Assembly (NCBI RefSeq): GCF_002850255.1
Contig: NZ_CP022522.1
Span: 2,417,125 to 2,481,124 of the forward strand
DNA length: 64,000 bases
Direction: 5' to 3'
Source of the DNA: Pseudoalteromonas sp. NC201
GTDB taxonomy: Bacteria > Pseudomonadota > Gammaproteobacteria > Enterobacterales > Alteromonadaceae
Under the pieces are notes generated by a model. It saw only the letters and a list, made by a program, of their open reading frames with translations. It searched no databases and was not told where the DNA came from. Positions 2,115-11,478 of this stretch are shown in pieces. A program made the translations under genes and the position numbers. The first letter of the stretch is position 1. Each line of letters starts with the position of its first letter.

Positions 2115-3410
2115 ATGACGTCTAACGCTTGGCAGCAGCGTCTGCTATCGCAGCAAAAAAACCGCCCTAACGACAATCGTTCAGCATGGCAAATAGACCG
2201 CTCTAGGATCATACATGCCGCGGCTTTTAGACGCTTGCAAGCCAAAACCCAAATTATGGCAATCGGCGTTAACGACTTTTATCGGACTCGCCTAACTCAC
2301 TCTTTGGAAGTATCGCAAATAGGCAGCGGTCTACTGCGCCATTTAAGAAAACAACACCCTGAGTTTGAACACTTTCCTTCGACTAGTCTTATTGAAACTT
2401 TATGTCTAGCGCATGATATCGGCCACCCGCCCTTTGGCCATGGAGGAGAAATAGCGCTTAATTACCTTATGCGTGATCATGGAGGGTTTGAAGGAAACGC
2501 TCAAACCTTGCGCATTGTCACCAAATTGGAACCATACACTAAAGGTTATGGCATGAACTTAACACGCCGTACCTTACTAGGTTTTATTAAATATCCTGCA
2601 TTAATCGACACACTTTGGTATCACCAACCAACGCAAACACAAAGTCGAAAATACATTTTATCTAGTGATTGGCTGCCAGCAAAAGGTATTTATCAATGCG
2701 ACCAATCGGTATTTGATTGGATCCTCTCGCCATTTTCTCAAAACGACCGAATAAAGCTGCAAGAAACCGAGGTTAAAGACACCTTCCGTCGCAAGACTAA
2801 GTTTAAATCGTTAGATTGCGCCATTATGGAATATGCCGATGATATCGCCTATGCAGTTCATGATTTAGAAGATGCGATTGCAACCGAGACCCTTAACGAG
2901 GCAGCATGGCATGATTTCGCTCTACCTGAATTACAAAAGTTAGACTCACCTTGGTTAAAGCACAACTTACAACGCGTGAGCGAGAGTTTATTTTCAGAAG
3001 ATGAATCTAATCGTAAAGATACCATAGGTGAGCTCGTGAACCTGTTTATTGTGCACTGTAAACTCACCGTTCAAGACTCAGATTATGACTCCGCCCTACT
3101 TCATTTTACCGTTGAGATGGCACCCGAATTTCAGGAAATCCTGCAAGTGTTAAAAGTGTTCGTATATCGAAGATTAATTCGTGAACCTAAAATGCAGCAA
3201 ATTGAGTTTAGTGGTCAAAACCTGCTTATTGATTTATTTGAAGTTTTTGCCAGTGATCCCATGCGATTATTGCCGTATACAACCCAAACACTGTACCAGC
3301 AAGCAACCGATGAAACGCAGCAAATGCGCGTGTTAGCGGACTATCTTGGTGGCATGTCTGATGAGTATGCGCGAAAAACGCATCGACGCTTATTTACCGG
3401 GGAACTGTAA
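2115..3410 (+). CDS. dgt: dGTP triphosphohydrolase-like protein (HD domain)
   Basis: A 431-aa cytosolic HD-superfamily phosphohydrolase expected to cleave dGTP to deoxyguanosine and triphosphate. The N-terminal signature RSRIIHAAAFRRLQAKTQ is characteristic of dGTPases. Metal ligands are visible: His62 (RLTHSLE), His100-Asp101 (LAHDIGHPPFGHGGE), and a later Asp in EYADDIAYAVHDLEDA. The length matches the shorter (about 430-440 aa) dGTPase class rather than E. coli Dgt (about 505 aa). An SD-like AAAGGAACAG precedes the ATG. The short class contains dGTPases reported to defend Shewanella against phage by depleting dGTP; whether this one does is inference. It stands alone, with no defence neighbours. 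Confidence 0.88.
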   Translation: MTSNAWQQRLLSQQKNRPNDNRSAWQIDRSRIIHAAAFRRLQAKTQIMAIGVNDFYRTRLTHSLEVSQIGSGLLRHLRKQHPEFEHFPSTSLIETLCLAHDIGHPPFGHGGEIALNYLMRDHGGFEGNAQTLRIVTKLEPYTKGYGMNLTRRTLLGFIKYPALIDTLWYHQPTQTQSRKYILSSDWLPAKGIYQCDQSVFDWILSPFSQNDRIKLQETEVKDTFRRKTKFKSLDCAIMEYADDIAYAVHDLEDAIATETLNEAAWHDFALPELQKLDSPWLKHNLQRVSESLFSEDESNRKDTIGELVNLFIVHCKLTVQDSDYDSALLHFTVEMAPEFQEILQVLKVFVYRRLIREPKMQQIEFSGQNLLIDLFEVFASDPMRLLPYTTQTLYQQATDETQQMRVLADYLGGMSDEYARKTHRRLFTGEL

Positions 3411-3484
3411 ACTCTGCTCGTAGAGGTAAAAATTAATCATGAAAAATTCGCATACATTGGCGATTAACTCATTCTTTAATTTTT

Positions 3485-3501
3485 CTTAAGCCTTTCTTAA
3501 G
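3485..3501 (+). promoter_or_regulatory. PmrA-type box before the Omp85 gene
   Basis: The sequence CTTAAGCCTTTCTTAAG is an exact CTTAAG-N5-CTTAAG direct repeat, the classical binding pattern of PmrA/BasR-type response regulators. A weaker third half-site (CTTTAA) sits 11 bp upstream. A possible -10 (CATATA) begins six bases after the box, so the box would replace the -35. It ends 52 bp before the start at 3554. The regulator is encoded at 6606-7283. Confidence 0.72.
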
Positions 3502-3553
3502 TATTGGCATATATGTTTTCAACGTAGCTTGATATTTTTCAGTTGGAGCATAT

Positions 3554-5212
3554 ATGCCAGCCAAAACCGTTGCGGTATTCGTGTTAGTCACTTCAATCAC
3601 TCCTGCATTTGCTGGTGACCCATTTAGCATCGACTCCCTTTGCAATAATAACGCTGAACATAGTACTAAAATGGCTCGACAGACGGATAAAGCGAGCCAA
3701 GAGAAAAACATCAAGATTGAGTCTATCGAAATAAACTCAAACCCTATTTTTAATCCGGACGACCCAGAAACGACCTCTTTCCATGACTTCGTAAACTGGC
3801 TGCATATAGAAACCCGAGATGCGACTATCGCTTCTCAACTCCCTTTTCAGGCTGGTGACCTAGTTAGCGAGGCCGATATTTTAGAGGCTGAGCGGATCTT
3901 GCGTGCTAAAAAATACATCAGAGAGGCGAAAATTAACTATGCCAAACCATGCAGTAGTGCCGAGCCACAGAAAATATCAGTGCAAACGTGGGACACCTGG
4001 AGTTTGCTACCCAGTGTCAACTTTGGCCGAAGTAGTGGAAACAATAAGTTAAGTTTGGGGTTTAAAGAAGAAAACTTGTTAGGGTATGGCGTTAGGGCAT
4101 CCGTAAAATACAAATCTGATCATGAACGTTCCGGTTACCATACTGTGTTGCAAATGCCTGCGCCATGGCAACCACATGCCATGATAACAGTGCAAGCAGA
4201 TGATTATGATGACGGTCAAATATTTATGACTGACATTTATCAACCTTTCTATCAGCGCTCCAGCTCTTTGTTATATAGAGCTTATATTAATGCACAAGAC
4301 CAAACGACTTCTATCTATCATAACGGTCAAACAGAAAGTCAGTTTCGATATAATGGTACATCTGCGCAGTTTGCTTATGGCCGTTTATGGCAGCAAACCA
4401 ACACCACCACACTTAGGTGGATAGCTGGTGTCGATTACCAAGATGTCAGCTATGACGAGCCAAACTTAGCCATAAGGGATAACCTTTATGACTTCAAATT
4501 GTTAGCGCCTTGGATAAGTCTTCAATATATCGAAGATAATTATATCGTGCTGCAGGACGTAGACTTAATCAATCACAGTGAAGATTTCAACCTCGGATGG
4601 TCACTTGCGGCCAAAACAGGTATTGATACCGAAGCGGATGGAGTTGGCTCAATTTGGGAGTTTTCAGCCAATAAAGCATGGCTATTTAATGATGATGTCT
4701 TATACCGATTTAAAGCATCAACCAATGCCCAAATCGGCACGCAGCAAGGTGATAGAGTATGGTCTACTCTCGCTGCAAAGGTAAATTATCGCTGGAGCGA
4801 TAGTTTTGCTTTTTATGCTGATGTCATTGCTGCGTGGCAAAACAAGGAATTTGCCGAGCGTCCTCTTGCACTCGGTGGAGAAGAAGGGATCCGTGGCTTC
4901 CCACAAAGCTATCAACAAGGTACGCAAACGGTCAAATCTTCATTCGAGCTCCGTATGTACCCTAACATTAATATTTATCAGCTTGTTGATTTAGGATTCG
5001 TTGGCTTTGTTGATATGGGAAAAGCATCCGAGAATATACAACATCCTAATATAAGCAATAAAATGCTAGGTAGTGTAGGGCTCGGAGTTCGTTTATATTC
5101 CGCCCGTTCAAGTAATGAAAACGTAGTGCATATAGACTTTACTAAACCATTAAGTAACTACCCTGAAGTTGACAGCTGGGAACTTGGTTTATCAGTGGAA
5201 ACTCACTTTTAA
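3554..5212 (+). CDS. Omp85/BamA-superfamily outer-membrane protein
   Basis: A 552-aa protein with a signal peptide ([16 protein letters not shown], cleaved before GDPF), then one POTRA-like segment (about residues 55-135, with [26 protein letters not shown]), then a beta-barrel of roughly 400 residues ending in phenylalanine (VETHF). The loop-6 hallmark of the family appears as GGEEGIRGF, corresponding to the (V/I)RG(F/Y) motif. It is shorter than BamA (five POTRAs) or TamA (three), so it may be a dedicated translocator, assembly factor or permeability protein. A GGAG precedes the ATG. It is preceded by an exact PmrA-type box and ends 8 bp from the convergent end of the sensor kinase gene. 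Confidence 0.82.
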
Positions 5213-5220
5213 ATAGCGCT

Positions 5221-6609
5221 TCAAAGGGTAAATGTAAAGGTGATGGTACTCGCTTCCAACGCAACAGTGAGTTCCGCGTCAATGGCTTCAGCAAAGGCCC
5301 TAGCAATAGGCAAGCCCAAGCCAAAGCAATCATTCGCGCTTCTCGATTGGTCGCTTTGCCATAGTGGTTCAAATAATTGTGCTAAATTCACGTTTTCGAG
5401 CTCGCCGGAAACCTGATTGCTCACTCGAACATTTATCCCATTTGTCGCCCCCTTTTCAACAACGATAAGTGCTTCAGAACCCAGTACTCGGTGGCGCTTG
5501 GCATTTTTCAGTAAGTTACCAATGATGCTCTCGACTGCCATTAAGTTGGTCTGAATTGGACATTCAGAGCAAGTTGTCTGAATCTCAACATTATCAAATG
5601 CTATCTCACCAATCGAACGGTTGATGACTTGCAATACATCAACAACATCGTCTTTAGGTAGCTTTATCTGCTCGTATTTATGTAACAACATGACGTTGGT
5701 GACGATGTTTTTCATCCGCTGACTTATTCTTAATACTTCTGGCACAAAGTCATCCGCCAGTTCATTGTCTTCCGGGAAGCGTGAAATAACTTCCGCCAAA
5801 TTAATAAGCTCCGTAATGGGCGTTTTTAATTCATGCGAAATATCTGAGGTTAGGCGCTTTTCTCGCAAGTACAATTGTCTGTTTTCAACAATAAAACGGT
5901 TTAGGCTTTGCTCAACGGGTAATAGCTCAGAGACAGGCTTTTCTAATATTATGGTGTCTGAATCTTTAGAGAAATTTAGTTTGGCTATCTGAGCGTTCAT
6001 GCTATTCAACGGCGCGAGACCAACATCGACCGTTTTGCGCACAAAGACACGAATAAACACCACAACACATACAATAGTCACGATAAAAACGATATCAATG
6101 AGCCAAAGAATAAAGTCCAATCCCTCCGACGAGGCCGCATAGGCAATAACAAGTTCGTCGTCAAAAGATTTTTTTTCCCCTTTTAGGGTATGGATCTGCG
6201 GAATAAAACGGGTATATATGATCCGTCCCGCACGACCATCTGGCAGGGTTTCATTTACCACTTTGCTCTCGCCAAGTGATAACGACAAATAAGGTAACTC
6301 GTGTTGCGAAAAAAGATCTAAGCTGTCAGAGCGTGCAAAAACTCGGTCGTTCAACCAGATTTGATAATATTCGGGCTCGATATTGCCAGTAAATTCAGGT
6401 AAAAACTCACCGGAAAAGTGCAGTTCAAGATGATCTTCATCTTCAGAGACTAACGTCATCAGCATGCCAACTTTTGTATGCATCGCTTTGTCGAATTGTG
6501 AGTCAATCCAAGAGTCAACAGCCAAATCTGTAGCGAGTAAAATGGCGACTACAACACCTGTGATGGTAATTGATAATGTGCTAACTAAGTTCCCTCGGAT
6601 CGACTTCAT
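5221..6609 (-). CDS. PmrB/QseC-like sensor histidine kinase
   Basis: A 462-aa inner-membrane kinase. Two membrane segments (about 8-30 and 166-190) enclose a periplasmic sensor domain of about 135 residues. Then come a HAMP-like linker, the H-box (TSDISHELKTP, phosphoacceptor His259), an N-box (IIGNLLKNAKRH) and the glycine-rich FGLGLPIA lid region. The usual D-x-G-x-G segment is weak (RVSNQVSGEL). The periplasmic domain carries clustered acids (SEDEDHLE, about 55-62), as might suit sensing of Fe3+ or cationic peptides, which is inference. The start overlaps the response-regulator stop by four bases (ATGA), so the pair is one operon. Confidence 0.86.
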   Translation of the reverse strand: MKSIRGNLVSTLSITITGVVVAILLATDLAVDSWIDSQFDKAMHTKVGMLMTLVSEDEDHLELHFSGEFLPEFTGNIEPEYYQIWLNDRVFARSDSLDLFSQHELPYLSLSLGESKVVNETLPDGRAGRIIYTRFIPQIHTLKGEKKSFDDELVIAYAASSEGLDFILWLIDIVFIVTIVCVVVFIRVFVRKTVDVGLAPLNSMNAQIAKLNFSKDSDTIILEKPVSELLPVEQSLNRFIVENRQLYLREKRLTSDISHELKTPITELINLAEVISRFPEDNELADDFVPEVLRISQRMKNIVTNVMLLHKYEQIKLPKDDVVDVLQVINRSIGEIAFDNVEIQTTCSECPIQTNLMAVESIIGNLLKNAKRHRVLGSEALIVVEKGATNGINVRVSNQVSGELENVNLAQLFEPLWQSDQSRSANDCFGLGLPIARAFAEAIDAELTVALEASTITFTFTL

Positions 6610-7283
6610 AGTAGTTGCTCAACATAATATCCAAACCCGCGTTTAGTTTTAACTGGCAAGCATTGACCCAACGCTTTGACCTTTTTACGTAGCGAAGAAA
6701 GGTGAGCTTCGATGGCATTTTTCGATACGCTATCGAAATTGCCGGTAATATAAGTGCTCAATTTTTCTGGTGTAATAATCTTATTTTGATTAGTAAACAA
6801 ACATTCCAAAATTTTATACTCATTGGGTGTTAAGTCTATTTGCTGCCCTGCAATTAACGCCGACTTTAGCTGCAAGTCAATGGTCAAAAAGCCATGCACG
6901 ATTTCATCACCATCTTGTTTAAATGCCCCTCTTCTCATTAGCGTTAATAGCCGTGCATGCAGCTCATCAAACGAAAAGGGCTTGGCGAGATAGTCGTCTG
7001 CACCACTTAATAAACCCAGCACTCGGTCTTCAGGTTGTGACTTTGCTGACAACACCAACACTCGAGTGTCATTCTTCTGCTGTCTTAGCGCTTTAAGCAC
7101 ACTTATGCCATCCAAACTGGGCAACATAATATCTAAAATAATTACATCATAGTGATCCATCAGCGCCATACTCAAACCGCTAGAACCATCCGCCGTATCA
7201 TCTACCGTAAAACCCAGTTTAGAGAGCCCTAAGGTTAAGCTGCGACGCAGGGATTCAGAATCTTCAATCAGTAACACATTCAT
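6606..7283 (-). CDS. PmrA-like response regulator (OmpR family)
   Basis: A 225-aa protein with an N-terminal receiver domain (acidic pocket E7-D8, phosphoacceptor Asp51 in ILDIMLP, conserved Lys in YLAKPF) and a C-terminal winged-helix DNA-binding domain (about 130-222; LTPNEYKILECL, then the KTKRGFGYYV wing). It is the first gene of a regulator-kinase operon. A box reading CTTAAG-N5-CTAAAG lies 50 bp upstream, and the same pattern precedes the Omp85, sulfatase and eptA genes. The simplest reading is that this regulator binds all four and controls its own synthesis. I refrain from naming it pmrA because paralogous OmpR regulators cannot be separated without a tree. Confidence 0.88.
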   Translation of the reverse strand: MNVLLIEDSESLRRSLTLGLSKLGFTVDDTADGSSGLSMALMDHYDVIILDIMLPSLDGISVLKALRQQKNDTRVLVLSAKSQPEDRVLGLLSGADDYLAKPFSFDELHARLLTLMRRGAFKQDGDEIVHGFLTIDLQLKSALIAGQQIDLTPNEYKILECLFTNQNKIITPEKLSTYITGNFDSVSKNAIEAHLSSLRKKVKALGQCLPVKTKRGFGYYVEQLL

Positions 7284-7332
7284 AAATAGACCTTTGGCTA
7301 GTGCTTAATATCACATAGCTTAGTTGCTCAAA

Positions 7333-7349
7333 CTTAAGATTCGCTAAAG
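7333..7349 (-). promoter_or_regulatory. PmrA-type box, candidate autoregulatory site
   Basis: On the plus strand this is CTTAAG-ATTCG-CTAAAG; on the minus strand it is CTTTAG-CGAAT-CTTAAG. One half matches exactly and the other has one mismatch. It ends 50 bp before the regulator start at 7283, the same distance seen at the other three targets. CTTAAG is itself palindromic, so orientation is assigned from gene position. Confidence 0.55.
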
Positions 7350-7382
7350 AGAACTTCAACTTTCATCAATTCCGAAGGATTT

Positions 7383-7399
7383 CCTAAGCTTTTCTTAAG
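7383..7399 (+). promoter_or_regulatory. PmrA-type box before the sulfatase-fold transferase
   Basis: CCTAAG-CTTTT-CTTAAG, one mismatch in the first half-site, ending 46 bp before the ATG at 7446. A -10-like GATAGT follows about eight bases after the box. It lies in the same divergent region as the regulator box at 7333-7349, 33 bp away. Confidence 0.65.
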
Positions 7400-7445
7400 T
7401 TTCGTCGGATAGTCTTGTGATAAATGCAACTATTCTTAACATTCT

Positions 7446-9389
7446 ATGAACAAAGTACACTTTTCAACTCCTTATGCACAACCTTTCATGGTGTTTTTCT
7501 TGTCCTTGTTGGTGATTTTGACGCTTAGCCGTTTAGGACTATCAGCTTGGATGTTAGAGAGAATGGCAGGCTCTGATCCTTTGACCTTTGTGATATCAGG
7601 CTTGCGAGTTGATTTGAGTACTACCGCTTATCTCGCGATACCGCTCTTATTATTAATGGTCACACACTATTTTATGCCTAAACCATTGAAGCCTTTACTT
7701 ACGGCGCTAGTAACGGGGTATATTGCGTTGGGTATTGCATTTGTCCTACTACTCGAAGCTGCAACTCCTGCATTTATTTTGCAATACGACATCAGACCGA
7801 ACCGTTTATTTATTGAGTATCTAATTTACCCCAAAGAAGTCATTTCAATGTTGTTGAGTGGTCACTTGGTCACAGTGATATTGACCCTACTTTTATGTGC
7901 TTTAGCTTTAATAACCACCTTGAGATATTTTCCTCGCATTGACAACGATGTGCCATCAAAGCGGAATATGGCTATCTCTACTTTTTGTAGTCTTATCTGT
8001 TTAGCGCTGTTAGCAAGAGGCACTCTGGGTCATAGACCACTTAACCCTGCTACCGTCTATTTCTCACAAGATGCATTGGTTAATTCGCTGACCATCAACT
8101 CAGCCTATAGTGTTGCGTTCGCAGCAAAAAATATGGGCAGCGAAAAAAGTGCCAGTGCGCTTTATGGTTCGCTATCCAAAGAAAAGGTTTTTAATACAGT
8201 AAGAAGAGCAAGTTACAAACAAGGTTTTATCTCAAATACACTTCCTACCCTAGCCACTAATCCGGCATATCATCAGGGCAAAAAGAAAAACTTAGTAATT
8301 ATCTTAGAGGAAAGCTTAGGCGCGCGTTTTGTCAGCTCGCTAGGGGGAGCAAATCTAACCCCAGAGTTAGATAAACTGTATCAAGAAGGCTGGGGGCTGG
8401 AGAACCTCTACGCAACGGGCACCCGATCGGTCCGCGGAATTGAAGCCGTGATCACCGGCTTTATACCTTCACCGTCACGCTCCGTCGTTAAGCTTTCAAA
8501 GTCTCAGCAACAGTTTTGTACGTTGGCAGATATTTTAGCCAAAGAAAACTATACCACACAGTTTATTTACGGTGGCGAAAGCCACTTCGATAACATGAAA
8601 AGCTTCTTCTTAGGAAATGGCTTTCAACGTATCGTTGACTTTGATGATATTGAAAGCCCGGAATTTGTTGCGTCTTGGGGCGCCAGCGACGAAGATCTGT
8701 TTAATCAAGCGGATAAAGAACTAACTCAGCTGAGTGAAGAAGAAAAGCCATTTTTTAATTTGATCTTTACATCTAGCAATCACGACCCGTTTGAAATTCC
8801 TGACGGAAAAGTAATGTTACCAACAAATCATAAAAGTGATAAACCTGCGCGAGATCTCGCTATCAAGTACGCCGACTATGCACTCGGAAAGTTTATTGAT
8901 AAGGCCAAGCGAAGTCGTTATTGGCAGGATACTATCTTTTTAGTCGTTGCAGATCATGATGTCAGGGTGTATGGATCCGAGCCCGTCCCTATTAAGTCTT
9001 TTCATATTCCAGCCGTTATTTTGAATTCAGACTTTAATCAGAAACAAGATAAAAGATTGGTCAGTCAAATTGATTTACCTGTCACTTTGCTTTCTTTAAT
9101 AGGGGTTGAACGCCCAACGCCTATGCTTGGTTTTGACTTAACCAAACAATATCCAGTGCAAAGAGCGATGATGCAATATTACGATAATTTTGCCTACATT
9201 GAAGATGACAAAGCCGCCATTTTGATGCCAGGCAACAAAGTGAGTTATTGGCAATATGACACGGCGACTAAGATGCAAAAACCATTGCTGAATACAACGC
9301 ACACCATTGATTTGAAAGAAAAAGCACTATCTCATGTATTATTTAGTAATTTGGCCTATCAGGAGCAAATTTATCGATTAAAAGAGTAA
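7446..9389 (+). CDS. LTA-synthase-family sulfatase-fold transferase
   Basis: A 647-aa inner-membrane protein with five or so N-terminal membrane helices (residues about 10-205) and a periplasmic sulfatase-fold domain (about 280-590). Family features: NLVIILEESLGARFV near a metal site, ATGTRSVRGIEA carrying the presumed nucleophile, SSNHDPFEIP, and VVADHDVRV with metal-binding Asp-His. Relatives (LtaS, OpgB) move glycerol-phosphate from phosphatidylglycerol onto a glycan or lipid and release diacylglycerol. The residue expected at the nucleophile position reads Ser rather than Thr. It precedes eptA-dgkA, and both it and eptA have PmrA-type boxes. The acceptor is unknown. Confidence 0.82.
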   Translation: MNKVHFSTPYAQPFMVFFLSLLVILTLSRLGLSAWMLERMAGSDPLTFVISGLRVDLSTTAYLAIPLLLLMVTHYFMPKPLKPLLTALVTGYIALGIAFVLLLEAATPAFILQYDIRPNRLFIEYLIYPKEVISMLLSGHLVTVILTLLLCALALITTLRYFPRIDNDVPSKRNMAISTFCSLICLALLARGTLGHRPLNPATVYFSQDALVNSLTINSAYSVAFAAKNMGSEKSASALYGSLSKEKVFNTVRRASYKQGFISNTLPTLATNPAYHQGKKKNLVIILEESLGARFVSSLGGANLTPELDKLYQEGWGLENLYATGTRSVRGIEAVITGFIPSPSRSVVKLSKSQQQFCTLADILAKENYTTQFIYGGESHFDNMKSFFLGNGFQRIVDFDDIESPEFVASWGASDEDLFNQADKELTQLSEEEKPFFNLIFTSSNHDPFEIPDGKVMLPTNHKSDKPARDLAIKYADYALGKFIDKAKRSRYWQDTIFLVVADHDVRVYGSEPVPIKSFHIPAVILNSDFNQKQDKRLVSQIDLPVTLLSLIGVERPTPMLGFDLTKQYPVQRAMMQYYDNFAYIEDDKAAILMPGNKVSYWQYDTATKMQKPLLNTTHTIDLKEKALSHVLFSNLAYQEQIYRLKE

Positions 9390-9391
9390 AG

Positions 9392-9408
9392 CATAAGGTT
9401 CTCTTAAG
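9392..9408 (+). promoter_or_regulatory. PmrA-type box before eptA
   Basis: CATAAG-GTTCT-CTTAAG, with one mismatch in the first half-site, lies directly after the sulfatase stop and ends 56 bp before the chosen eptA start. A -10-like TATAGA begins six bases after the box, the same geometry as at the Omp85 promoter. eptA-dgkA can therefore be transcribed independently of the upstream gene. Confidence 0.65.
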
Positions 9409-9464
9409 TATTTCTATAGAAAATAAAGATAACTTAGTTTTTATTTTCTCGTCAGGAGTTGGAT

Positions 9465-11108
9465 ATGTTTAAATTTTTAAAACATATCTCCCCATCAGGC
9501 TATACCAGCCTGATGGTTCTCGCCACCCTTTATTGTACCTTTGCTTTTAATAGCCTATTTTTTATCAAAGCCTTTAATGTTGCTACAATACAGGAGTGGT
9601 CCGATTGGCTATTTTTAGCGTCTGTCCCTATTCTTTTATTTTTCCTGACACTGTTACTATTTAGTTGGCTTTCTTTAATCACCTTCGTACGGCCTTTTCT
9701 ATTCTTTACCATTGTGTTATCTAGTGTGTTGCTATACGCATCAATAAACTACGGCGTCATATTTGATAAAAACATGATGCAAAACGTTATTGAAACAGAC
9801 ACAGGTGAAGCATTTTCATATTTAAATATAAATCTAGTTCTTTTCGTACTAACTTTGGGTTTAATTCCTGCTTATTTAATGACAAAAAACAAAATCAGGC
9901 AGCCACTAAAGCAAAGACTAAAATCCTTTATTCTCATTAATTTTGTTTCAATAACCTTCATCTCTTTGATAGCATTTAGCTTTTATCAAAACTATGCTTC
10001 CATTGGTAGAAACAATAAAGAAGTCGCAAGCTATATCACGCCATTTTCATTTTATATTGCAGGATATAAATACCTGAGAGATAACTATTTTTATCCTCCA
10101 TTACCATTTCGATTACTAGATAAAACACCTGCTTTAGCTTCCAAGTCAGGTGCTAATATTACCGTTGTCGTTGTTGGTGAAACTGCACGTGCAAGCAACT
10201 TTTCATATGGAGGCTATAAAATAGATACTAACGAATACACTAAACAGGACGGCATCAAATATTTCAGTAACATGTCATCTTGTGGCACAGCGACAGCAAT
10301 TTCAGTACCCTGTATGTTTTCACGGCTAGATAGAGCACATTACAATAGCCGTCTTGCTCAGAGCCAAGATAACGTGCTTGATGTGATCCACAGGGCTGGC
10401 GCCGAAGTGTTTTGGATAGACAATAATAGTAGTTGTAAAGGTGTATGTAATCGGGTTGAGAATTATCGGATTGATACTAACAAGGATAACCCGCTGTGCG
10501 ACGGTAAGTATTGCTTTGATGAGGTACTAATCCCATCACTTATGACTACCATAAACAACGCGCAAACAAGCAATATTGTTGTTGTCTTACATATGATTGG
10601 CTCGCATGGCCCAACTTATTACCGCCGCTACCCTAAAACGCAGCAAAAATTCCTCCCAGATTGCCAGCGTAGCGATATCCAAAATTGTACGCCTCAAGAA
10701 TTAGTGAACACCTATGACAATACCATCGCTTACACAGATTTAGTGTTGCACAAAATCATTACACAACTGTCTTCATTAGACGCAGAAACAGTCAACATGC
10801 TCTATGTTTCCGATCATGGCGAATCACTCGGTGAAACCGGATTATATTTACATGGCTTTCCATATCGTCTAGCACCTAAAGAGCAAACCCAGATCCCGAT
10901 GATTTATTGGAGTAATCGCCTAACAAATAAAAGCTACAGTGGTTGCATTGACATCGTAAAACAGCAACCCCTTTCTCATGACAATATCTACGATACGTTA
11001 CTTGGCTTAACCCAAGTTAATTCGAAAACCTATCAGTCCAAAAATGACATATTCGCAACCTGTCGAACTCAATTACTCGCAACTAATGGAGAAACTAATG
11101 CATTTTGA
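9465..11108 (+). CDS. eptA: EptA/MCR-like lipid A phosphoethanolamine transferase
   Basis: An inner-membrane enzyme with five N-terminal helices (to about residue 200) and a periplasmic alkaline-phosphatase-fold domain. Catalytic features of EptA/MCR are visible: VVVGETARA (metal-binding Glu), SCGTATAISVPCMF with nucleophile Thr275, and YVSDHGESLGE (Asp-His). Paired cysteines (SCG/VPC, CKGVC, CDGKYC, DCQ/QNC) match the conserved disulfides. It transfers phosphoethanolamine from PE to lipid A, lowering surface charge and polymyxin binding. The start is placed at ATG 9465, six bases after AGGAG (9454-9458); a TTG at 9459 would abut the SD. The end overlaps dgkA by 11 nt, giving one operon. Confidence 0.9.
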   Translation: MFKFLKHISPSGYTSLMVLATLYCTFAFNSLFFIKAFNVATIQEWSDWLFLASVPILLFFLTLLLFSWLSLITFVRPFLFFTIVLSSVLLYASINYGVIFDKNMMQNVIETDTGEAFSYLNINLVLFVLTLGLIPAYLMTKNKIRQPLKQRLKSFILINFVSITFISLIAFSFYQNYASIGRNNKEVASYITPFSFYIAGYKYLRDNYFYPPLPFRLLDKTPALASKSGANITVVVVGETARASNFSYGGYKIDTNEYTKQDGIKYFSNMSSCGTATAISVPCMFSRLDRAHYNSRLAQSQDNVLDVIHRAGAEVFWIDNNSSCKGVCNRVENYRIDTNKDNPLCDGKYCFDEVLIPSLMTTINNAQTSNIVVVLHMIGSHGPTYYRRYPKTQQKFLPDCQRSDIQNCTPQELVNTYDNTIAYTDLVLHKIITQLSSLDAETVNMLYVSDHGESLGETGLYLHGFPYRLAPKEQTQIPMIYWSNRLTNKSYSGCIDIVKQQPLSHDNIYDTLLGLTQVNSKTYQSKNDIFATCRTQLLATNGETNAF

Positions 11109-11478
11109 TAACACCAATAAGCCAACTGGAGCAAAACGACTATTGCTGGCGCTTGGACACTCATTTAGAGCGTTTAATTGGCTCACAAAAAATGAATCCG
11201 CCTTTCGGCAAGAGCTTATTCTACTGCTGGTTACTATCATTTTGCTGTTTACACTTGAACTTTCACTCTATGAGCGCGTTATGTTGTTTTGTGCAACGCT
11301 GTTTGTGATGTTTGCTGAGATAGTGAATACCGCTATTGAAGCAACAATTGATAGAGTCGGTTTAGAAATCCATCCACTGTCGGGGCTTGCCAAGGACTTG
11401 GGCTCTGCAGGCGTATTGATCGCACTTATCGTTTTTATCTGCATCTGGGGCAGCTGTTTATATCAAAACCTCTACTAG
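11098..11478 (+). CDS. dgkA: Diacylglycerol kinase
   Basis: A 126-aa integral membrane kinase, close to E. coli DgkA (122 aa). Hallmarks are NESAFRQE near the N-terminus, the acidic active-site helix AEIVNTAIEATIDR, and LAKDLGSAGVLIAL. It phosphorylates diacylglycerol to phosphatidic acid in the inner membrane. The start ATG 11098 has TGGAGA six bases upstream and overlaps eptA; an earlier ATG at 11044 would add 18 residues absent from the family. Its position fits recycling of diacylglycerol left by EptA and, presumably, by the LTA-synthase-like enzyme. Confidence 0.93.
   Translation: MHFDNTNKPTGAKRLLLALGHSFRAFNWLTKNESAFRQELILLLVTIILLFTLELSLYERVMLFCATLFVMFAEIVNTAIEATIDRVGLEIHPLSGLAKDLGSAGVLIALIVFICIWGSCLYQNLY

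Follow-up and report, generated by a model that had tools for sequence, protein, structure and literature searches.

Why should four promoters at one locus of Pseudoalteromonas sp. NC201 carry the same repeated hexamer, and which regulator would read it? The stretch analysed here, hereafter the window, comprises 64,000 nucleotides (contig NZ_CP022522.1, positions 2,417,125 to 2,481,124 of the forward strand) of a 5.38 Mb genome in two contigs. The gene order at the locus is dgt, omp85, a kinase and a regulator gene (both on the minus strand), a gene for a sulfatase-type transferase, eptA and dgkA. Boxes of the form CTTAAG-N5-CTTAAG precede omp85, the regulator-kinase operon, the sulfatase-type gene and eptA. 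We consider it likely that these four boxes are activator sites of an OmpR/PhoB-family response regulator, chiefly the one encoded at the locus itself, and that they define a regulon of envelope genes.

Four boxes and their promoters

All four boxes lie where the initial annotation had put them, and each ends 46-56 bp before its gene, as was claimed there. The omp85 box (CTTAAG-N5-CTTAAG, 3485..3501, plus strand, zero mismatches) stands 52 bp before the ATG at 3554, and the box of the regulator-kinase operon (7333..7349, minus strand, where it reads CTTTAG-N5-CTTAAG) 49 bp before the minus-strand ATG at 7283. The distance is 46 bp for the sulfatase-type transferase (CCTAAG-N5-CTTAAG, 7383..7399, plus strand; ATG at 7446) and 56 bp for the eptA-dgkA box (CATAAG-N5-CTTAAG, 9392..9408, plus strand; ATG at 9465), or 50 bp if eptA starts at the alternative TTG at 9459. 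The assignment of half-site and N5 spacing to the PmrA type also stands: the published PmrA consensus, as given in the accessible part of PMC10729948, is YTTAAK-N5-YTTAAK. The omp85 site fits it exactly, and the regulator, sulfatase and eptA boxes each have one off-consensus base, located in the gene-distal half-site.

The promoter elements had to be redrawn. A -10-like hexamer six bases past the box had been reported for two genes and is found at eptA only (TATAGA, 9415-9420). At omp85 (TATGTT, 3512-3517), the regulator (TAAGCT, 7317-7322) and the sulfatase-type gene (TAGTCT, 7410-7415), a TAnnnT begins 10 bp past the box. The omp85 promoter additionally has a weak third half-site (CTTTAA, 3474-3479).

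With zero or one mismatch, the window contains the four boxes and no other site. With up to two mismatches it contains 12 matches compared to 3.9 +/- 1.9 in shuffled sequence, and 12 was reached in 0 of 100 shuffles. The genome-wide search for CTTAAG-N5-CTTAAG suggested by the initial annotation returned 20 places at up to one mismatch, four of them at this locus, compared to 5 for the reversed pattern. The 16 other places fall within open reading frames (13), between convergent gene ends (1) or before genes (2; L055 and L065). Thus, a wider regulon sought in this genome at up to one mismatch yields only two promoter-like places: one is 128 bp 5' of a transporter-like gene and overlaps the preceding gene, the other is 39 bp 5' of a thermostable-haemolysin-type gene on the second contig.

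Conservation of the box and its promoter architecture

For the comparison with relatives, loci were selected by the regulator protein and not by the box. The regulator was found in 46 of 108 genus genomes (E 1e-60; 49 places) and in 33 of 394 genomes sampled from the order (E 1e-58). All regulator places plus two named loci make up 82 loci including the window, of which L066 and L207 are apparently the same contig. We extracted 361 upstream regions of 220 bp, excluding regions shorter than 200 bases and matches beginning past query residue 40, a filter that removes the distant omp85 genes. Where two divergent genes have a single physical box in common, it is counted once for each gene.

CTTAAG-N5-CTTAAG (up to one mismatch) is present in 106 of the 361 upstream regions, compared to 16 for the runner-up palindrome and a mean of 0.46 for 63 others. 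After removal of near-duplicates, the box is found in 45 of 174 regions versus a mean of 0.11. Spacers from 0 to 15 other than N5 give 0-16 regions, and N16, which corresponds to the triple repeat, gives 63. Boxes precede eptA (37/73), the sulfatase-type gene (30/51), the regulator (33/82) and omp85 (5/5, the close relatives of the window), compared to 1/62 for dgkA, 0/81 for the kinase and 0/7 for dgt; this is the pattern expected for the heads of transcription units. The box also persists through operon reshuffling, from a regulator gene divergent from sulfatase-eptA-dgkA to a single box heading eptA-dgkA-sulfatase-regulator-kinase.

Alignment of 42 nonredundant sites reveals a near-invariant proximal half-site CTTAAG, a CTTMAG-like distal half-site and a weak third half-site 11 bp further upstream (A at -7 in 31/42, G at -6 in 32/42). 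A TAnnnT is located exactly 10 bp past the box in 30 of the 42 sites; among the other offsets from 0 to 20 none exceeds 3 sites, and offset 21 has 7. The repeat is probably oriented head to tail because the non-palindromic variants (TTCAG, CTTCAG) share one direction. Head-to-tail binding has been published for Klebsiella PmrA, according to the accessible part of PMC3973317. The constant distance from box to gene start, on which the initial annotation had relied, holds at the four genes of the window and not in the relatives, where estimated starts lie 39 to 175 bp away and the longest distances belong to boxes common with a divergent gene. We therefore rejected the start-codon distance as the invariant, the distance to the -10 element being better kept. 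On the aligned sites, the better invariant is a head-to-tail CTTMAG-N5-CTTAAG followed, 10 bp on, by TAnnnT.

Without mismatch, the composite CHWHAG-N5-CTTAAG-N10-TANNNT occurs three times in the genome, all at the locus, and the reversed control does not occur; a YTTAAG version adds a fourth exact match at C1:1260617. At least one composite match is found in 74 of 107 genus genomes, with 129 matches in total compared to 8 for the control. In 20 composite-site regions from other genomes, picked by eye and holding 22 sites, 13 sites precede eptA, sulfatase or dgkA homologs and 9 do not. One composite box in G007 (L279, minus-strand scan position 4357) has the same sequence as the eptA box of G008, and the largest open reading frame within 400 bp downstream of it encodes a 292-residue protein unlike EptA; this box is possibly a remnant promoter.

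The same architecture is found on plasmids. Seven plasmid records carry an ortholog of the regulator (E 1e-50), and four of them were analysed (90,664 bases; Alteromonas stellipolaris, Glaciecola sp., Salinimonas iocasae and Alteromonas macleodii) using up to two mismatches together with a TAnnnT 10 bp on, a limit chosen after viewing chromosomal loci of the same subclade. All 11 composite sites (11/11) are located 42-69 bp 5' of annotated starts on the correct strand, and five control hexamers give none; because the four loci fall into related pairs, the 11 sites are not independent events. The genes behind these boxes are the regulator (three loci), PAP2-eptA, eptA-dgkA, an operon with ArnC-like, VTT and ArnT-like genes, one short hypothetical gene and an Omp85 homolog (32% identity across 303 residues). 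On the Glaciecola plasmid the regulator gene itself has no composite site.

Two arrangements are recorded here as observations. In two marine plasmids (L348:6943-10111 and L349:6941-10109), the boxed ArnC-like/VTT/ArnT-like operon adjoins a boxed eptA-dgkA. In one regulator locus (L310:7560-10755), a PAP2-eptA-DUF3108 unit has an ACTAAG-N5-CTTAAG box.

Candidate readers of the boxes

The initial annotation described the regulator and kinase at the locus as PmrA/PmrB-like, which fails in the strict sense. The regulator (6606..7283, minus strand) is 34% identical to Escherichia coli BasR and 36% to QseB, and it scores far below the cut-offs of the NCBIfam models for PmrA (156.4 bits, cut-off 330) and QseB (144.5 bits, cut-off 345). 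In a tree of OmpR-family regulators (53 rows), it belongs to a 28-row clade of its own (support 100/99), and BasR clusters with QseB plus a single paralog (98/97). This clade, the BasR-QseB pair and PhoP fall inside one group (96/91), within which the branching order is not fixed. Orthology to PmrA is ruled out by the separate clade and the sub-cut-off PmrA score.

The sensor histidine kinase (5221..6609, minus strand; periplasmic domain of about 130 residues) reaches 42 bits against the NCBIfam PmrB model (cut-off 314). The periplasmic domain of PmrB binds iron through an ExxE motif. No ExxE is found in periplasmic residues 30-162 of the kinase, so a PmrB-like iron sensing is unsupported; among the orthologous kinases examined, 37 of 79 have some ExxE in residues 31-165.

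A further candidate is encoded on the second contig. This regulator (L299:6920-7582) shares 46% identity with BasR, and its recognition helix (SNAIEVHIHHLRKK) is of the PmrA/QseB type. Its apparent operon (L299:2611-8913, G000:C2:736610 on) runs from the thermostable-haemolysin-type gene (PF12261) to the PmrA/QseB-type regulator and a kinase, and opens with CTTAAG-N5-CTTAAT-N10-TAAAGT. In G011 and G084, boxes stand before genes that resemble the PF12261 type, by look only, near PmrA/QseB-type regulators.

When the genus genomes are classed by regulator content (E 1e-60 for both types), composite matches are present in 34 of 36 genomes with both regulators, 9 of 9 with the local type only, 17 of 25 with the second-contig type only and 14 of 37 with neither. 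Nine examined genomes with the second type only (G016, G020, G050, G077, G084, G093, G115, G118 and G123) have sites before eptA or sulfatase homologs. In one of these, G077, the interval from dgt to the sulfatase gene lacks the regulator, kinase and omp85 genes, and the sulfatase box is retained; this genome encodes a second-contig-type regulator that is 95% identical. Five of the 14 neither-regulator genomes with matches were checked (G002, G007, G045, G083 and G111), and only G002 has a site preceding a sulfatase gene, which is thus boxed without either regulator at the thresholds used. Given the box and protein type of the second-contig regulator, the class counts and the case of G077, both regulators may plausibly read the boxes in this genome, and the PmrA/QseB-type regulator probably does so in addition to the local one.

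We propose the following scheme. A membrane signal would reach the kinase, and the phosphorylated regulator would dimerise and bind CTTMAG-N5-CTTAAG head to tail over the -35 region, with a weaker contact at the third half-site 11 bp upstream. Polymerase would then be recruited to the -10 element 10 bp downstream, the regulator replacing a -35 element in a PmrA-like, class II-like placement. The local regulator would be the chief binder and would also activate its own operon. EptA (9465..11108, plus strand) is predicted to add phosphoethanolamine to lipid A, and DgkA (diacylglycerol kinase; 11101..11478, plus strand), whose gene overlaps eptA and probably forms one transcription unit with it, would recycle the diacylglycerol by-product, as stated for MCR/EptA in the accessible part of PMC12064563. 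The sulfatase-fold membrane transferase of the LtaS/MdoB kind (7446..9389, plus strand, 647 residues) could derive a second envelope modification from phospholipid; the one-POTRA Omp85 may aid outer-membrane assembly or export in the modified state. Together, the products of the gene set probably alter the outer membrane in defence against antimicrobial peptides.

Several observations weigh against this proposal. The box (up to one mismatch) is absent upstream of 36 of 73 eptA, 21 of 51 sulfatase and 49 of 82 regulator orthologs, partly because these genes sit inside operons. TAnnnT at 10 bp is lacking in 12 of the 42 aligned sites, some of them boxes seen from the side of the divergent gene, and at the eptA promoter of the window, where TATAGA is at offset 6 instead; E. 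coli eptA is boxed as well, with GAGCAT at 10 bp. With one mismatch allowed, the composite matches 29 genome places compared to 13 for the reversed control, so weak sites elsewhere are indistinguishable from chance. In the local regulator, three of the five PmrA specificity residues, taken from contacts in a docking model of PmrA with DNA, are changed (K153 to N, T187 to K and H195 to S), with N188 and H193 kept. Finally, eptA or sulfatase genes are boxed in genomes without the local regulator.

An alternative reading is that the boxes serve mainly the second-contig PmrA/QseB-type regulator, with the local regulator fine-tuning or having another role. The likeness of this protein to BasR, its recognition helix, the box at the head of its own operon, the sites in 17 of 25 genomes with this type only, nine of them with sites before eptA or sulfatase homologs, and the sulfatase box left in G077 after loss of the local regulator, kinase and omp85 all speak for it. 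However, all nine genomes with the local regulator only retain composite sites, and many loci have a box ahead of the local regulator gene itself, three of the four plasmid loci among them; we regard this reading as unlikely, if the strongest of those weighed here. Somewhat less probable still is that each regulator controls its own copies, the likeness of the boxes being convergence and flanking bases preventing cross-regulation. Spacer, third half-site and -10 context do vary among sites, and one regulator subclade is associated with ACTAAG or ATTCAG distal half-sites, but the proximal half-sites are identical and, in the accessible part of PMC10729948, the E. coli arn promoter, which carries the PmrA consensus, is shifted by phosphorylated QseB. 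The same source assigns QseB a consensus other than this box.

Repression, with the boxes covering the promoter, would agree with their overlap with the -35 position. It is nonetheless improbable: a conserved -35 hexamer is absent 17 bp before the -10 element, and the 10-bp geometry is the one found at the arnB promoter of E. coli (CTTAAG-N5-GTTAAT-N10-TAAAAT). As for chance or composition, a lone CTTAAG arises randomly and 13 of the 20 one-mismatch genome places are inside open reading frames. Such an origin is nevertheless ruled out at the sequence level, with hardly any doubt left, by the shuffles, the reversed pattern, the 63 palindromes, the spacers, the composite-pattern and plasmid controls and the control hexamers. 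Activation chiefly by the local regulator is the reading we retain. At the sequence level, the claim that Omp85, the regulator, the sulfatase and eptA belong to a single regulon is strongly backed, more so than the initial annotation had argued, by the footprints in relatives, the plasmids and omp85 boxes that do not adjoin the regulator; its strict attribution to PmrA/PmrB is dropped.

Omp85 and the nearest known systems

Omp85 is an unexpected member of such a regulon and is not usually linked to the antimicrobial-peptide response. The protein (3554..5212, plus strand, 552 residues) consists of one POTRA-like domain and a barrel; its structure model (mean pLDDT 82) aligns with POTRA5 and the barrel of BamA, and the combination of POTRA and BamA/TamA-like barrel places it in the Omp85 superfamily. 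Pfam, NCBIfam, PDB and fold searches, which cover the families contained there, gave no function beyond the superfamily.

Some Omp85 match is present in 106 of 107 genus genomes, and homologs with at least 53% identity are box-linked in 16 of the 16 genomes that have them. The box is immediately 5' of omp85 in 14 of these 16; in G123 and G062 it precedes eptA, and omp85 follows eptA. Five of the 16 loci have the arrangement of the window, the other 11 not adjoining the local regulator. Nine of the genomes with these 11 loci have that regulator elsewhere (about 178 kb away in G001, on another contig in several), and G119 and G123 lack it, yet their omp85 is box-linked. Among 14 more distant omp85 loci (about 29-32% identity), three are boxed, all in loci of the type regulator-kinase ... 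box-omp85-eptA-dgkA. Two close relatives, G014 and G096, lack both omp85 and its box. By sequence, then, Omp85 is a member of the regulon, and its recurring operon with eptA, found in several lineages, suggests that it acts in the modified outer membrane. In two further close relatives, L319 (G075) and L322 (G055), stop codons interrupt omp85 and the box is intact.

The PmrA/BasR regulon of Enterobacteriaceae resembles this one in half-site, N5 spacing, head-to-tail repeat, the boxed E. coli eptA and the -10 spacing of E. coli arnB. It differs in the clade of the regulator, in the sensor part of the kinase and in its targets, which here include an LtaS/MdoB-like enzyme, DgkA and Omp85. The likeness to QseBC lies in the E. 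coli qseB promoter, which by sequence has a box (CTTAAC-N5-CTTAAG, without TAnnnT at 10 bp), and in the type of the second-contig regulator; the local regulator falls outside the QseB group, and the QseB consensus in PMC10729948, as far as accessible, differs from the box.

The nearest tested precedent we found has another operator: in Vibrio vulnificus, CarR activates dgkA-eptA-mdoB, so that a two-component system controls dgkA, eptA and a phosphoglycerol-transferase-type gene, and the CarRS targets are jointly needed for full polymyxin resistance (PMC10433830, accessible part). The CarR motif given there is GACA-N6-TACA rather than CTTAAG-N5-CTTAAG, and that part of the paper does not mention Omp85. 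In Vibrio harveyi, dgkA and eptA are expressed less and colistin resistance drops when the regulator of RstAB is deleted; the gene set is different, and the box is not mentioned in the accessible part (PMC12064563).

Tentatively, and with more doubt than confidence, we suggest an apparently undescribed regulon of the polymyxin-response type in marine Alteromonadales, in which two regulators of different clades share one operator, a dedicated one-POTRA Omp85 is a core output and lipid A modification is coupled to a special insertase or exporter of the outer membrane. Searches on Omp85 with PmrA or polymyxin, Omp85/TamA with EptA, the PmrA box with eptA, and Pseudoalteromonas eptA/dgkA found no describing paper among the matches listed, judged by title and start of abstract and with few subscription journals covered. 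No paper on a structure of PmrA with polymerase was listed in a further search. The operator and promoter architecture described here for lipid A modification is precise and testable, and it comes from a group of marine bacteria with eptA genes similar to the mobile colistin-resistance (MCR) families. An Omp85 in the response would connect the remodelling of surface charge with the assembly of the outer membrane, and an operator possibly common to two regulators would be a natural test of insulation versus cooperation between paralogous two-component systems.

EptA has the PF08019 (EptA_B_N) and PF00884 sulfatase domains and reaches 582.5 bits against the NCBIfam domain model NF028537 (cut-off 500), which places it among EptA/MCR-type phosphoethanolamine transferases; it is below the cut-off of the narrower EptA equivalog NF008619 (518 versus 660 bits). 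The sulfatase-type transferase (7446-9389) has 'Uncharacterized protein VP1736' as a close homolog (structure 3lxq, 544.7 bits). The dgt gene 5' of omp85 (2115-3410) encodes a protein that matches the NCBIfam anti-phage dGTPase model with 568.5 bits (cut-off 400).

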